Shown: positions 9,869 to 15,047 of the stretch, piece after piece
Layout: every line of letters begins with the position of its first letter
Position numbering within the stretch: position 1 is the first letter of the stretch
Origin: Bdellovibrio sp. 22V
GTDB taxonomy: Bacteria > Bdellovibrionota > Bdellovibrionia > Bdellovibrionales > Bdellovibrionaceae
Reading direction: 5' to 3'
Assembly: GCF_030169785.1 (NCBI RefSeq)
Contig: NZ_CP125854.1
Coordinates: 2,666,001 to 2,730,000, forward strand
DNA: 64,000 nucleotides
The notes under the pieces: generated by a model
Told to the model about the DNA's origin: nothing
The model's database searches: none
What the model saw: the letters and a program-made list of their open reading frames with translations, nothing else
Position numbers and translations under genes: made by a program

Positions 9869-10882
9869 ATGAAAACTTTCATCGCTCTTCTTGCTTCCGC
9901 TTTTTTACTTTCAGCTTGCGCGACAACACCGTCGACAAAAAAGACGGAAGCCGCCGCGATGAAAGGTTTCGATGCGGAATTGACTCAGTATCAATACCCG
10001 TTTCCAGTGAAATATTTTGCATTCAAATCTCAAGAGCAAGATTTGAAAATGGCTTATATAGATATCCCGGCCGGAAGACCCTCTGACAAAGTTATCGTTC
10101 TTCTTCACGGAAAGAATTTTCCCGGCGCTTATTTTGAACAAGTCATATTGGGTCTGAACCAAGAAGGCTATCGTGTGATTGTTCCTGATCAAATCGGTTT
10201 CGGGAAATCTTCGAAGCCTGGATACTATCAATATAGCTTTCAGACACTTGCCCAAAACACTAAGAATCTTTTGCAAAGTTTAGGTGTTGAAAAATTTAAT
10301 CTTCTGGGTCACTCGATGGGCGGAATGGTCGCGACTCGTTTTGCATTGATGTATCCCGAAAGCGTGACGAAACTTTTCTTAGTAAATCCTATCGGTCTTG
10401 AAGATTGGAAAACGATGACATCGTATAGAAATATCGATGAAGGATTTAAGGCGGAACTCGCGAGCTCACCTGAAAAAATCAAACAATACCAACTCGACAG
10501 TTATTACGATGGAAAATGGAAGTCTGAGTACGACAAGTGGTTGGAAATTCCAACAGGCTGGCTTGAAGGCCCCGACTATAAGTTGATCGCGTGGAATGCG
10601 GCTTTAACTTCAGACATGATTTTCACTCAACCGGTTTTTTATGAATTTAAAAATCTAAAAATGCCGACAGTATTAATCATCGGAGATCGCGACCGTACAG
10701 CCATCGGCAAAGCCTGGGCTTCTGATGAAATGAAAAAGAAAATGGGAAATTATCCTGTCATCAGCAAACAAGTCGCACAAATGATTCCAAAAGGAAAACT
10801 TGTGACACTGAAAGGCTTGGGTCACATGCCCTTCATCGAAGACTTCGAAGCTTTCTGGAAAGTATTAATAAAAAATCTATAG
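9869..10882 (+). CDS. lipoprotein alpha/beta-hydrolase
   Basis: A 337-residue alpha/beta-hydrolase fixed to a membrane by a lipid. The signal peptide ends in LLSAC (cysteine 17). Core motifs are in order: VIVLLHGKNFPG (oxyanion hole), DQIGFGKSSKP, the nucleophile elbow GHSMGG with serine 149, an acid in IIGDRDRTAIG, and a histidine in KGLGHMPFIED. This is the classical esterase/haloalkane-dehalogenase-like layout. AAGGAG stands before the ATG. It follows the membrane-anchored protein gene by nine bases. The substrate is unknown; an envelope esterase or lipase is likely. Confidence 0.9.
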   Translation: MKTFIALLASAFLLSACATTPSTKKTEAAAMKGFDAELTQYQYPFPVKYFAFKSQEQDLKMAYIDIPAGRPSDKVIVLLHGKNFPGAYFEQVILGLNQEGYRVIVPDQIGFGKSSKPGYYQYSFQTLAQNTKNLLQSLGVEKFNLLGHSMGGMVATRFALMYPESVTKLFLVNPIGLEDWKTMTSYRNIDEGFKAELASSPEKIKQYQLDSYYDGKWKSEYDKWLEIPTGWLEGPDYKLIAWNAALTSDMIFTQPVFYEFKNLKMPTVLIIGDRDRTAIGKAWASDEMKKKMGNYPVISKQVAQMIPKGKLVTLKGLGHMPFIEDFEAFWKVLIKNL

Positions 10883-10952
10883 TAGATCAGATTCAGAGAT
10901 TTAGATTTCTGTGTTTTGAAAACAAAAAAACCCGGATTACTTTCATATTTAA

Positions 10953-11144
10953 TACTTCTGCCCGTGTACAAAAGAACGCGTCGTGCGCGCTCTTGAAACT
11001 TTAGGAGAAGAAGAACTTCAAGACATGATCAACAAAAACGACGACGCCGCCGTCACTTGCCAAATCTGCGGCCGCCCTTACACAGTCACCGTCGCAGAAA
11101 TCGGCGAAATCAAAGGCCGCGTGCACAAAGAGTCTATGCACTAA
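10953..11144 (+). pseudogene. hslO: 3' remnant of an Hsp33 chaperone gene
   Basis: Reading from 10953 gives about 63 residues ending at TAA 11142-11144 that match the C-terminal redox switch of Hsp33. CPC comes first, then 30 residues including RALETLGEEELQDM, then CQICGRPYTV. The spacing CxC-X30-CxxC is the zinc motif of the family (CxC-X27-32-CxxC). An in-frame stop (10950-10952) sits immediately before, there is no start codon or ribosome site, and the N-terminal substrate-binding domain of some 220 residues is absent. The motif residues are intact, so the loss is probably recent. An internal ATG near 11022 could at most make a 40-residue peptide without the first cysteine pair. Confidence 0.85.
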
Positions 11145-11396: not shown

Positions 11397-12080
11397 ATGC
11401 AAAAATATTGGATATTACTCATCACCGTTTCCTATATATCCCCCGTAGGAGCGCATCTCTCTGAAACTTATCGCATTTCGAAAGAATTCCATGATTCCGG
11501 CGAGTATCGAGCGAAAGAGCCGTTGAATTGGAAGTTAAAACCTGAGGATGTTCGGGAGATGAACTCCCTCGATACGAAATATTATAGAATTAAATATCCT
11601 AAATGCTTTAAACCGGAAGATGTAAGTGAGGAGGACAACGTGCAAATGTCTCCTCACATCACGTTTAACAGAACGGAAAAATGTCCCGGATATAGAGGGG
11701 AATGGGTGGAACTATTATCCGTCTATTGGTTAGATGGCCATTTTAAAAAAGCGAAGACAGCTGATGATCTTATACTTGGAAGAAGTGTTTATGAACAGAG
11801 AGGTTTAGTTAATAATTACCCCGCCGCTTATTTGGTTACTTTGGAGAGCATAACCAGAGATATGAAAATAGGCTACGAGGTGCAGCTTAATTATAATGTT
11901 CTGATTCTCTGCAAAGGAGATGTCTACGGCATTAGCGCGAGCGCTCTACAAGGCAAACAATCCCTGGATCTTATAAAGAGCAAAAAATTTGATTTTCCGG
12001 AAGACTTTAAGAAGATTGCATCCAGCTTTGAGTGCAAAGGCATTCCAGACTCCATGAAGGTTTTGAAAAAAAACGGGTAA
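11397..12080 (+). CDS. exported paralogue, copy 1 of 3
   Basis: A 227-residue protein of no family I recognise, first of three tandem paralogues. It has a signal peptide (MQKYWILLITVSYISPVGA) and a mature part with four or more conserved cysteines (KYPKCFKP, EKCPGYRGEW, LCKGDVYG, FECKGIP). Conserved blocks are RAKEPLNWKL near residue 39, YYRIKYPKC, DMKIGYEVQLNY, and the C-terminal SLDLIKSKKFDFPEDF. Its 3' end has one more A in the poly-A tract than copy 2, so it ends KKNG instead of KKTGKK. TGAGG precedes the ATG. Probably periplasmic or surface protein. Confidence 0.75.
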   Translation: MQKYWILLITVSYISPVGAHLSETYRISKEFHDSGEYRAKEPLNWKLKPEDVREMNSLDTKYYRIKYPKCFKPEDVSEEDNVQMSPHITFNRTEKCPGYRGEWVELLSVYWLDGHFKKAKTADDLILGRSVYEQRGLVNNYPAAYLVTLESITRDMKIGYEVQLNYNVLILCKGDVYGISASALQGKQSLDLIKSKKFDFPEDFKKIASSFECKGIPDSMKVLKKNG

Positions 12081-12210
12081 GAAATAAAGAAAGAGGTGCT
12101 TGCATTTTTTGGGAATCTGACGACTTTGCGGAATGAGAAAGTTGGATGTTCAAGCGTGCTAAAGGAATCCCGCTATTTACAAAGAGGGTTTAAAAGAGTG
12201 AATGCAAAAT
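11901..12210 (+). repeat. direct repeat, unit A (partner at 12708)
   Basis: About 310 bases covering the last third of copy 1, the spacer and the first codons of copy 2. It recurs at 12708-13016 with only a handful of differences, at an offset of 807 bases before and 806 after a one-base poly-A indel. The genes' 5' parts are clearly more diverged, so this block is younger or has been homogenised. Confidence 0.85.
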
Positions 12211-12893
12211 ATTGGATATTATTCTCCATAATTTTTTCCTGCAATAATGGATGGACCACTGTTTCAGATGAAATCGGACGTATAGTCAAAGAGTTTCGCA
12301 GCTCTGGTTCTGTCCGCGCGAAAGAGCCACTGAATTGGAAATTAACTCCCGACGATGTTCGTGCGATGAATTCCCTCGATACGAAGTATTACAAAATTAA
12401 ATATCCTAAATGCCTTAAGCCGGAAGATGTAAGCGAGGAGGACAACGTCCAAATTTCTCCTCACATCACATTTAACAGAACGGAAAAATGTCCCGGGTAT
12501 AAAGGTGAGTGGGTAGACTTGCTTGCCGTCTATTGGACCAGAGAGCATTACGAGAAAGCGAAAACTGCGGATGATCTGACGCTCGGGAATGCGATCTATG
12601 ATCAAATAGGTACTGTTAATGGTTATCCCGCTGCGTATTCCATTATATTGGATAGCATTGTAAGAGACATGAAAATAGGCTACGAGGTGCAGCTTAGTTA
12701 TATTGTTCTGATTCTTTGCAAAGGAGATGTCTACGCTATTAGCGCGAGCGCTTTGCAGGGCAAACAATCCCTGGATCTTATAAAGAGCGAAAAATTTGAT
12801 TTTCCGGAAGACTTTAAGAAGATTGCATCCAGCTTTGAGTGCAAAGGCATTCCAGACTCCATGAAGGTTTTGAAAAAAACGGGTAAGAAATAA
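12198..12893 (+). CDS. exported paralogue, copy 2 of 3
   Basis: A 231-residue paralogue of the gene at 11397. I use the GTG at 12198, because the peptide from there (VNAKYWILFSIIFSCNNG) aligns with the start of copy 1 and gives a signal peptide, and GAGGG lies upstream. The frame is open back to 12096, but those 34 codons are the intergenic repeat and repeat again before copy 3. All the conserved cysteines and the RAKEPLNWKL and SLDLIK blocks are kept. It ends KKTGKK. The function is unknown. Confidence 0.72.
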   Translation: MNAKYWILFSIIFSCNNGWTTVSDEIGRIVKEFRSSGSVRAKEPLNWKLTPDDVRAMNSLDTKYYKIKYPKCLKPEDVSEEDNVQISPHITFNRTEKCPGYKGEWVDLLAVYWTREHYEKAKTADDLTLGNAIYDQIGTVNGYPAAYSIILDSIVRDMKIGYEVQLSYIVLILCKGDVYAISASALQGKQSLDLIKSEKFDFPEDFKKIASSFECKGIPDSMKVLKKTGKK

Positions 12894-13016
12894 AGAAAGA
12901 GGTGCTTGCATTTTTTGGGAATCTGACGACTTTGCGGAATGAGAAAGTTGGATGTTCAAGCGTACTAAAGGAATCCCGCTATTTACAAAGAGGGTTTAAA
13001 AGAGTGAATGCAAAAT
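12708..13016 (+). repeat. direct repeat, unit B (partner at 11901)
   Basis: Second copy of the 310-base block. It includes the identical intergenic segment (AGAAATAAAGAAAGAGGTGC onward) ahead of copy 3, with a GTGC to GTAC change, and a TATTGG to TACTGG change in the first codons. The same 3'-gene sequence recurs once more at about 13560-13672 at the end of copy 3, but not its spacer. Confidence 0.85.
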
Positions 13017-13696
13017 ACTGGGTATTATTCTTCCTAATTTTTTACGTACATAGTGGAAGCGCAACTGTTTCTGATGATATCAGTCGCATAATTAAAGAGT
13101 TTCGTGACTCTGGCTCTTTCCGCGCGAAAGAGCCGTTGAATTGGAAGTTAACTCCCGAGGATGTTCGTGAGATGAGTTCCCTTGACACGAAATATTACAG
13201 AATTAAATATCCTAAATGCTTTAAACCGGAAGACGAAAGTGAAGAAGATAATGTTCAAATCTCTCCTCACATCTCAATTGACAGAACAGACAAGTGTCCC
13301 GGGTACAAAGGCGAGTGGGTAGGCTGGCTTGCCGTGTATTGGACAAGAGGGAATTACAAGAACGCGAAAACTGCAGATGATTTGTCGCCGGGGAATGCAA
13401 TCTATGATCAAAGGGGTACCGTGAATGGATATCCCGCTGCTTATTTCATCACATTGGACAGTATTGTAAGAGATATGAAAATAGGCTACGAGATACAGCT
13501 CAATTATTCAGTGAGAATTATTTGTCGTGGTGAAGTTTACGGTGTTGGAGCCAGAGCTCACCAAGGCAAACAATCCCTGGATCTTATAAAGAGCAAAAAA
13601 TTTGATTTTCCGGAAGACTTTAAAAAGATTGCATCTAGCTTTGAGTGCAAAGGCATTCCAGACTCGATGAAGGTATCTAAAAAACCGGCTAAATAA
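13004..13696 (+). CDS. exported paralogue, copy 3 of 3
   Basis: A 230-residue paralogue of copies 1 and 2, read from GTG 13004 for the same reasons as copy 2. The signal peptide reads VNAKYWVLFFLIFYVHSGSA. The middle is the most diverged of the three (WVGWLAVYWTRGNYKNAKT, IICRGEVYGVGARAHQGK), while the final 40 residues are again almost the same. One of the blocks present in copies 1 and 2 (CKGDVY) has become CRGEVY with the cysteine kept. Its 3' flank is unlike the other two and runs into the hairpin-rich leader of the histidine kinase. Confidence 0.72.
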   Translation: MNAKYWVLFFLIFYVHSGSATVSDDISRIIKEFRDSGSFRAKEPLNWKLTPEDVREMSSLDTKYYRIKYPKCFKPEDESEEDNVQISPHISIDRTDKCPGYKGEWVGWLAVYWTRGNYKNAKTADDLSPGNAIYDQRGTVNGYPAAYFITLDSIVRDMKIGYEIQLNYSVRIICRGEVYGVGARAHQGKQSLDLIKSKKFDFPEDFKKIASSFECKGIPDSMKVSKKPAK

Positions 13697-13751: not shown

Positions 13752-13845
13752 GTCTCGAATCGAGACGGTGCTTTGCCAAGAAAGTCACCGTCAAGGGGAT
13801 AAACACCCGCCGGCGACCACCGCGTGTTTAGGGCGGGAGCGGGAC
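13752..13845. other. cluster of strong hairpins before the histidine kinase
   Basis: Three inverted repeats follow each other. GTCTCG-AAT-CGAGAC lies at 13752-13766. ACGGTG-CTTT is paired with AAAG-T-CACCGT at about 13764-13791. AAACAC pairs with GTGTTT around a GC-rich core, with CCCGCC able to pair to the later GGCGGG, at about 13801-13836. The segment is markedly GC-richer than the AT-rich genes to its left. It could be a structured 5' leader, or a dispersed intergenic repeat. It matches no riboswitch class I know. Confidence 0.5.
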
Positions 13846-13862
13846 TTGCTGTTTTCTGGGGT

Positions 13863-15047
13863 ATGGACCCGAGTAGACTCAAAAAAATCAAATACTTGTC
13901 AAAGTCGCTTCTGGCGATTTTTATCGGTGCATGTGCGCTGGTGGCGGTATTGAGTTTTGGATTTGAGGTTCATAGCGCCAAAGCCTCCGTCGAAAAATAC
14001 GTCGGTATTTGGGAAGACGACATCGCTCAAGCCAAGATCTTTCAAGGCGATCCCAGCCTGCAAAATAAAATTTTGGAGCAGCTTAAAGAAGTGCATACGG
14101 CTGTTGCGCAAACCGAAGTACAAAGTCCAGAGAAGCTTCAATGCCGTATTTTCACTGACGTTCCGATTACGTATAATTCACTTCCAAGTGGCAGTATGCG
14201 GGTGTGCTTCAGTTCTGCAGATCTTGCGCTGAAAGCTCTTCTGTCGCCCTTGTTTATGTTGGGCATCGTCTTAGGCATGATCTTCATTGGTTTTAGTTTG
14301 CGCCGCGAGTTTCAGAATCAGTTGCACGAGCAAAAGCTTGCTGCCGAGCTGGCACTGAATAAAGAAATCGCTTCGGTCTCTCGCCAAGTGGCGCACGATA
14401 TTCGCGGTCCTTTAATGGCGTTGACGACTCTGAGTCAGCTTTCGCACGAAATGGGTTCAGATAAAAGAGAGCTTTTAAATTTGGCCGTCGCAAGAATCCG
14501 CGGTATCGCGGACGATTTGCTCAACAAAGGTCAAAAAGAAAAATCCACCGTGAGCTCAATGCGAACAAGCCAAGAGACAGACCTCACGCAGTTGTTGGAG
14601 TCGTTGCTTAAGGAATACCGTTTTGCAAATCCTAAAGTGAACTTCACATGGCACAAGCATATCCATTCAGAGAACGTGCCTGTCACGCTCGAAGCGCTGA
14701 AAGTTCAACGTGTCGTCAGCAACCTTATTAACAATTCTTTGGAAGCGCTTCCAGAAAAGGAAGCCTCTATCAATATCACTTTGATGGAGCGCCCAGAGCA
14801 TTGGCTTTTGCAAATTATGGATAATGGCAGCGGCATCCCTGAAGACATCCTGCCGTCACTTGCACAAGAGGGTGTAAGTCATGGAAAAGAAAACGGACAC
14901 GGTCTTGGACTTTACGACGCTCGTAAAACGGTAGAGTCTGTCGGTGGTGAACTGCAGATCCGCTCGCGTGTCGGTGTTGGAACTCAAGTCGTTCTTTTGT
15001 TCCCGAAGCTCAATAAAGAAATCGCTAAAAATCACGCGGCACTTTAA
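13863..15047 (+). CDS. membrane sensor histidine kinase
   Basis: A 394-residue sensor kinase. Two membrane segments (about residues 16-34 and 125-146) enclose a periplasmic sensor of some 90 residues with two cysteines (LQCRIF, MRVCFS). The phospho-acceptor histidine is residue 178 in the H-box VAHDIRGPL. The ATPase domain shows the N-box NLINNSLEAL, G1 DNGSGIP and G2 GHGLGLYDARKTVE. No response regulator is adjacent, so it is an orphan kinase by context. The start is uncertain: ATG 13863 has GGGG just two bases before it, while GTG 13824 is in frame and lengthens the protein by 13 residues. Confidence 0.88.
   Translation: MDPSRLKKIKYLSKSLLAIFIGACALVAVLSFGFEVHSAKASVEKYVGIWEDDIAQAKIFQGDPSLQNKILEQLKEVHTAVAQTEVQSPEKLQCRIFTDVPITYNSLPSGSMRVCFSSADLALKALLSPLFMLGIVLGMIFIGFSLRREFQNQLHEQKLAAELALNKEIASVSRQVAHDIRGPLMALTTLSQLSHEMGSDKRELLNLAVARIRGIADDLLNKGQKEKSTVSSMRTSQETDLTQLLESLLKEYRFANPKVNFTWHKHIHSENVPVTLEALKVQRVVSNLINNSLEALPEKEASINITLMERPEHWLLQIMDNGSGIPEDILPSLAQEGVSHGKENGHGLGLYDARKTVESVGGELQIRSRVGVGTQVVLLFPKLNKEIAKNHAAL

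Follow-up and report, generated by a model that had tools for sequence, protein, structure and literature searches.

Three genes arranged in tandem on the same (+) strand of the window, as we call the whole stretch of 64,000 nucleotides analyzed here, code for paralogous proteins whose genes diverged long ago and have very probably since recombined with one another at their junctions. The explanation that best accounts for the observations as a whole, to which we assign a probability of about 0.48, is that the array is a recombining family of orphan immunity-type partners of C39-like enzymes.

Results

Copy 1 (11397-12080) has an ATG start and specifies an exported protein of 227 amino acids. 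Copy 2 (12198-12893) starts with a GTG that aligns with the start of copy 1 and specifies 231 amino acids, and copy 3 (13004-13696), also with a GTG start, specifies 230. Longer GTG-initiated frames are alternatives for copy 2 (from 12096) and for copy 3 (from 12902). The proteins encoded by copies 2 and 3 share 76% and 72% identity, respectively, with that of copy 1. Gene and spacer together form direct repeats with a spacing of 807 and 806 bases; spacer 1 (12081-12197, +) is non-coding, ends with a ribosome-binding site and the GTG start, and recurs almost identically as spacer 2 (12894-13003, +). All three N-termini are hydrophobic and resemble signal peptides as read from the sequence, and four cysteines (C70, C96, C172 and C213 in the numbering of copy 1) are kept in four of four known members of the family, including the distant relative described below. 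The proteins are probably exported to the periplasm. The analysis of this 2.3-kb array confirms the initial annotation, which had reported three exported paralogues in a row with conserved cysteines. A scan of the array for promoters found three promoter-like sites, against 5.7 expected, and a scan for terminators found eight, against 2.9 expected (sd 2.3); three of these eight overlap at 11036-11058 on the minus strand, and two pairs are copies of each other within the repeats. No weight was placed on either scan.

The segment shared by the two junctions comprises the end of copy 1, spacer 1 and the start of copy 2 in its first occurrence (11952-12211, +) and the end of copy 2, spacer 2 and the start of copy 3 in its second (12759-13017, +). 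In these 260 bases there are two substitutions (11982 and 12158) and one indel, located in a run of A residues that has eight members (A8) in copy 1 and seven (A7) in copy 2. The 117-nt spacer after copy 1 differs from the spacer after copy 2 by a single substitution. When the block was widened to 310 bases (11902-12211), the mismatch lists gave eight substitutions plus the indel, and this confirmed the near-identical block that had been noticed earlier across the copy 1/2 and copy 2/3 junctions. The difference in the A-run also puts the end of copy 1 (12063-12080 in the window) in another frame than the end of copy 2, and because of this shift the C-terminus of copy 1 is KKNG instead of KKTGKK.

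Silent divergence was computed in windows by the Nei-Gojobori method. Between copies 1 and 2, dS falls from 1.50 (codons 1-157) to 0.13 (codons 158-225); the corresponding values are 0.63 and 0.55 for copies 2 and 3, and 1.77 and 0.58 for copies 1 and 3. By this measure, the closest relation of copy 2 is with copy 3 over the first 157 codons and with copy 1 over codons 158-225. Even divergence along the copies, which the initial annotation had named as the pattern incompatible with recent homogenization, was not found, as the two values for copies 1 and 2 illustrate. These two copies have 110 mismatches in total over 11471-12066, and their cleanest windows contain one mismatch per 100 bases and six per 150 bases; when the 110 mismatches were placed at random, none of 10,000 placements reached either minimum. 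The 3′ end of copy 3 shares the homogenization in part (dS 0.26-0.35 over codons 186-225), and there are smaller mosaic tracts, such as codons 81-100, where pS is 0.25 between copies 1 and 2 versus 0.56-0.66 in the other pairs. The neighbors have diverged except in blocks where their identity is high, at silent as well as non-coding sites, and this is the pattern of a recombining array.

This pattern is best explained by recombination between the paralogues, be it conversion or unequal crossing-over, and we hold this with high confidence. As had been proposed, there is good support for recent local exchange on top of old divergence: the silent sites of the block and the spacer are nearly identical, while those outside are saturated or old. 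A constraint at the protein level or a regulatory one could be invoked instead to account for the 3′ identity, and conservation in the family is indeed highest in the C-terminal motif, also when the member found in another genome of the genus (G002) is counted. However, the silent sites (dS 0.13 vs 1.50) and the non-coding spacer are conserved too, and only between the copies. Constraint on the protein cannot cause the identity of the block, because the 117-base spacer does not code for protein and has one substitution; we find this alternative hardly credible. Another possibility is that unequal crossing-over alone converted an array of two genes into one of three with a chimeric middle gene, with no separate gene conversion. 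The 5′ part of copy 2 does resemble copy 3 (dS 0.63 vs 1.50) and its 3′ part copy 1 (0.13 vs 0.55), and such a crossover leaves a repeated junction, but a single event predicts equal ages for both halves and the spacers, and these ages differ several-fold. Crossing-over alone is an improbable account, since the unequal ages (0.63 in the 5′ part of copies 2/3, 0.13 in the 3′ part of copies 1/2 and 1 in 117 nt in the spacer) imply at least two events.

We infer from these values an older expansion and, after it, one or more younger exchanges through the block formed by gene end and spacer, whether these were conversions or further crossovers. The tracts at codons 81-100 and the partial identity at the end of copy 3 fit repeated exchange. 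The family expanded through tandem duplication of a unit composed of spacer and gene, and its paralogues are now very probably shaped by recombination among themselves, the latest event having made the segment from gene end through spacer to the start of the next gene nearly identical for 1/2 and 2/3. The recombination result stands by itself, yet the process is of a known kind.

Pairwise dN/dS lies between 0.07 and 0.38 in all 15 region-by-pair estimates. Over the 20-codon windows (12 for each of three pairs, 36 in all) pN is lower than pS with one exception, codons 201-220 of copies 1 and 2, where there are no differences of either kind. The array is under strong purifying selection. The earlier suggestion of selection for varied central regions was not borne out, as every dN/dS is below 0.4 and no window has pN higher than pS, in a test that saturated dS weakens. 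Tandem duplication, mosaic structure, local identity and purifying selection are thus direct observations on the array.

The array adjoins a 3′ fragment of hslO (10947-11144, +), which is separated from the rest of the gene and covers the last 65 or so codons of Hsp33 (residues about 240-304), and is bordered on the right by a histidine kinase gene (13824-15047, +). The hslO gene is split, and its residues 1-279 are encoded at a distance of 1.0 Mb, on the minus strand (G000:C1:1669641-1670477; L077/L085, where G000 is the genome of the window). A 120-bp piece of hslO (118/120 identical) is present at both places of the break, and the distant half is flanked by a poly-G-rich stretch some 100 bp long (L085:5552-5636). 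To the left of the array, an alpha/beta-hydrolase lipoprotein gene borders the hslO fragment (9869-10950). This lipoprotein gene is far from hslO in relatives, and in one of them (G020, L061:2663-7866) it borders a complete rRNA operon; a single SSU rRNA gene was seen in the genome of the window. The break, which is about 250 bp upstream of the array, may be an inversion through hslO or an assembly misjoin. The placement of the array in this interval is independent of the answer, since no break separates the array from either the hslO end or the kinase gene, a pair that encloses variable gene content in relatives.

These irregularities bear on the alternative that the identity of the block is an artefact of assembly or polishing, in which the reads of one spacer corrected the other and the assembly shows the two occurrences of the block as more alike than they are in the cell. 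The poly-G stretch at the distant hslO break is a suspicious assembly spot, although located elsewhere, and the 120 bp present at both breaks and the one SSU rRNA gene could be read in the same sense. Against this, private differences persist in or beside the block (11982, 12158 and the A-run), there is no low-complexity run within the 64-kb window, and correction can affect only stretches that resemble each other closely to begin with; the diverged parts of the genes could not have come about by it. We consider an artefact very unlikely.

The gene content of the interval between hslO and the kinase gene varies in the seven relatives examined (L062, L063, L066, L068, L069, L072 and L074). A phospholipase-D-like lipoprotein is encoded there in G020, G017 and G002, a small exported protein in G001, G018 and G008 (with further genes in the latter two), and helicase/ligase-type genes are found in G014. 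Judged by its gene content, the interval is a spot of gene exchange.

Profile searches with the array family found no family in Pfam (E<=1), NCBIfam (E<=5) or PADLOC (E<=1), and the matches in PHROGs were noise (best E 0.048). The profiles did not match the EsaG, TipC or TsaI families or the ankyrin Bd3460-type families either. The best sequence matches in the PDB, to microcompartment-shell proteins (E 0.38), were taken as chance. The initial annotation had recognized no family; this stood as far as curated libraries are concerned, but one relative, in G002, does provide genomic context. Among 24 genomes of the genus, all of different species, the family was found in two, with three copies in the genome of the window and one in G002, and was not detected in the other 22. 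Copy number is not fixed among these species, so the fixed copy number that the initial annotation had named as incompatible with recent homogenization was not found. A phylum-wide search of 368 genomes produced matches in three, one of which (G140) was dropped; its matches (E 0.00098 and 0.0049) were short and partial, in ORFs that do not have the pattern of the family, and were attributed to chance. Weak matches in G000 (E 0.39) and G020 (E 0.42) were also dropped. No member was found by tblastn of plasmids and phages, or in viral and genome contigs, where the search, with short patterns back-translated from three to four sequences, had limited sensitivity. Among the titles listed for the open-access papers searched, on Bdellovibrio with polymorphic toxins and immunity, with gene conversion and tandem paralogs, or with Rhs toxins, none concerned the array family.

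The mean pLDDT of AlphaFold models was 42.3 for the three proteins of the window together and 37.9 for copy 2 alone, and Foldseek with the three-protein model returned nothing at E <= 0.001. In the C-terminal half, the poor model of the array proteins has four antiparallel strands followed by a helix, as do Mog1/PsbP/DcrB-type folds; however, DcrB ranked sixth in Foldseek with a non-significant E of 0.39, and all the models are of low confidence. A Mog1/PsbP/DcrB-like fold is to be taken as a lead only.

The relative in G002 (L009:9419-10087, minus strand), a protein of 222 amino acids, shares 29, 33 and 29% identity with copies 1, 2 and 3, respectively (E 9e-22 to 6e-26). There is a 4-nt overlap between its start and the end of a gene for an exported protein of 841 amino acids (L009:10084-12609, minus strand). 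This protein matches Peptidase_C39_2 with E 0.0013 and 19.8 bits, which is below the curated Pfam cut-off of 24; candidate Cys, His and Asp residues are visible, which may correspond to the C39 motif. The G002 relative is located immediately downstream of the enzyme gene, and the three copies of the window are not next to such a gene. At the corresponding site in G006, a gap of 67 bp separates the flanking genes, which are 93-97% identical, neither the enzyme nor the partner gene lies between them, and the junctions are clean, so enzyme and partner came or went as one two-gene cassette. Inheritance as a pair with the putative effector was observed in this one comparison, G002 vs G006. The pair is also absent from the cassette site in G023, G015, G000 and G001. 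Genes for VWA lipoproteins occur near the array and near the G002 cassette; this shared context was considered and treated as coincidence. Taken together, the arrangement suggests that the array family is probably paired in function with the C39-like enzyme in G002.

The N-terminal module of the enzyme, about 200 amino acids long, is exported, has conserved cysteines and is apparently absent from Pfam. It recurs in a protein of G019 (L084:3592-5631; E 1e-11) and in a second protein of G002 (L092:2781-6497; E 1.5e-6), and there is a weak match in G010 (L093:3344-4558; E 0.0019). The G019 protein, which has no Pfam match, is presumably transglycosylase-like to judge from its motifs, and we take the repeats of the second G002 protein to be an Rhs core. 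What we assume to be transposase-like genes directly follow the latter gene (L092:1538-2742). The G010 transglycosylase-like gene (L093:3344-5423) is in two overlapping frames of 404 and 307 amino acids; both match one continuous G019 protein, so the G010 gene looks frameshifted. The transglycosylase-like enzymes of G019 and G010 are each followed by homologous exported genes of 343 amino acids (31% identity, E 3e-34), a partner family with no relation to the array family. In these few cases the partner family seems to follow the enzyme domain attached to the common N-module, with C39-like enzyme and array family in G002, and transglycosylase-like enzyme and 343-amino-acid protein in G019 and G010, where the module match of G010 is weak. 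The genome of the window has no match to the 841-amino-acid enzyme or to the N-module, and its three array genes are therefore orphans.

Discussion

The position of the G002 relative suggests that members of the array family are partners, encoded downstream, of an exported enzyme that resembles C39 peptidases. By a further step, this partner may be an inhibitor or immunity protein that shields the cell envelope from the enzyme. The genome of the window would then keep three orphan copies without the enzyme as a protection against the enzymes of other strains or species, and recombination would reshuffle and renew these antidote copies. An immunity or inhibitor role is a tentative proposal, to which we give somewhat less than an even chance. 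The pairing comes from a single relative, found in G002 alone, the match of the enzyme to C39 falls short of the Pfam cut-off and its activity is a prediction. In addition, the neighbors of the array (the hslO fragment and the kinase gene) are unrelated to toxins, no immunity model was matched in PADLOC or Pfam, and the predicted fold cannot be placed at mean pLDDT values of 42 and 38. Strong purifying selection without diversification is also not the simplest expectation for an arms race.

Some of these observations would suit a different role in the envelope, with tandem duplication and concerted evolution of, for example, a secreted or surface protein related to predation, the adjacency in G002 being due to a common secretory or metabolic pathway (substrate binding or chaperone). 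The array stands alone with no enzyme nearby, the purifying selection is like that of housekeeping genes, no immunity family was matched, and the hslO-kinase interval of relatives has varied exported genes and no toxins. On the other side are the 4-nt overlap and the joint gain as a two-gene cassette, as well as the change of the partner gene with the enzyme domain behind the common N-module. We see such a role as a serious but less probable alternative.

The immunity reading finds its closest published behavior, among the reports found and to the extent of what they describe, in the esaG and tipC arrays of the type VII secretion systems of Staphylococcus and Streptococcus; this is an analogy. 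According to the description in PMC9484751, tandem esaG and tipC immunity genes recombine via homology blocks, one of which consists of gene end and intergenic region. As in the array, the copies are tandem paralogues that are not identical, separated by spacers much alike in length and sequence, the genes are mosaics, gene end and intergenic region form a homology block, and copy number changes between genomes (PMC9484751), which for the array means between different species. However, EsaG is described as countering a nuclease toxin encoded beside its array, and no toxin is near the array of the window, which has three copies only, signal-peptide-like N-termini and conserved cysteines; the likeness drawn here is one of behavior. 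Arrays of orphan immunity genes are also described in Vibrio cholerae, where several putative immunity genes lack an effector (PMC5361080). Those arrays are attributed to displacement of effectors at T6SS clusters, in contrast with the paralogues of one family found here, with no T6SS gene seen nearby. In Bdellovibrio, purified Bd3460 is reported to inhibit the exported endopeptidase Bd3459 (PMC4686830). Bd3460 of Bdellovibrio bacteriovorus is likewise a small exported protein, and its gene directly follows that of an exported peptidase that targets the cell wall, but it is described as an ankyrin-repeat protein paired with DD-endopeptidases (PMC4686830), unlike the array family, for which neither ankyrin repeats nor any other Pfam domain was matched and whose G002 partner is C39-like.

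A broader scheme is conceivable, although unlikely in its entirety. Lineage-restricted exported modular enzymes would carry interchangeable C-terminal domains (C39-like, transglycosylase-like or Rhs core) behind the common N-module and would be used between related cells, probably predators, each with its own exported antidote family. The array of the window would then be a set of orphan antidotes that is kept working and varied by recombination through blocks of gene ends and spacers.

If the immunity reading is true, the array would represent an unannotated protein family tied to a modular weapon system of exported enzymes, in a genus of apparently predatory bacteria, and it would be a miniature of the recombination known from the immunity arrays of firmicutes.
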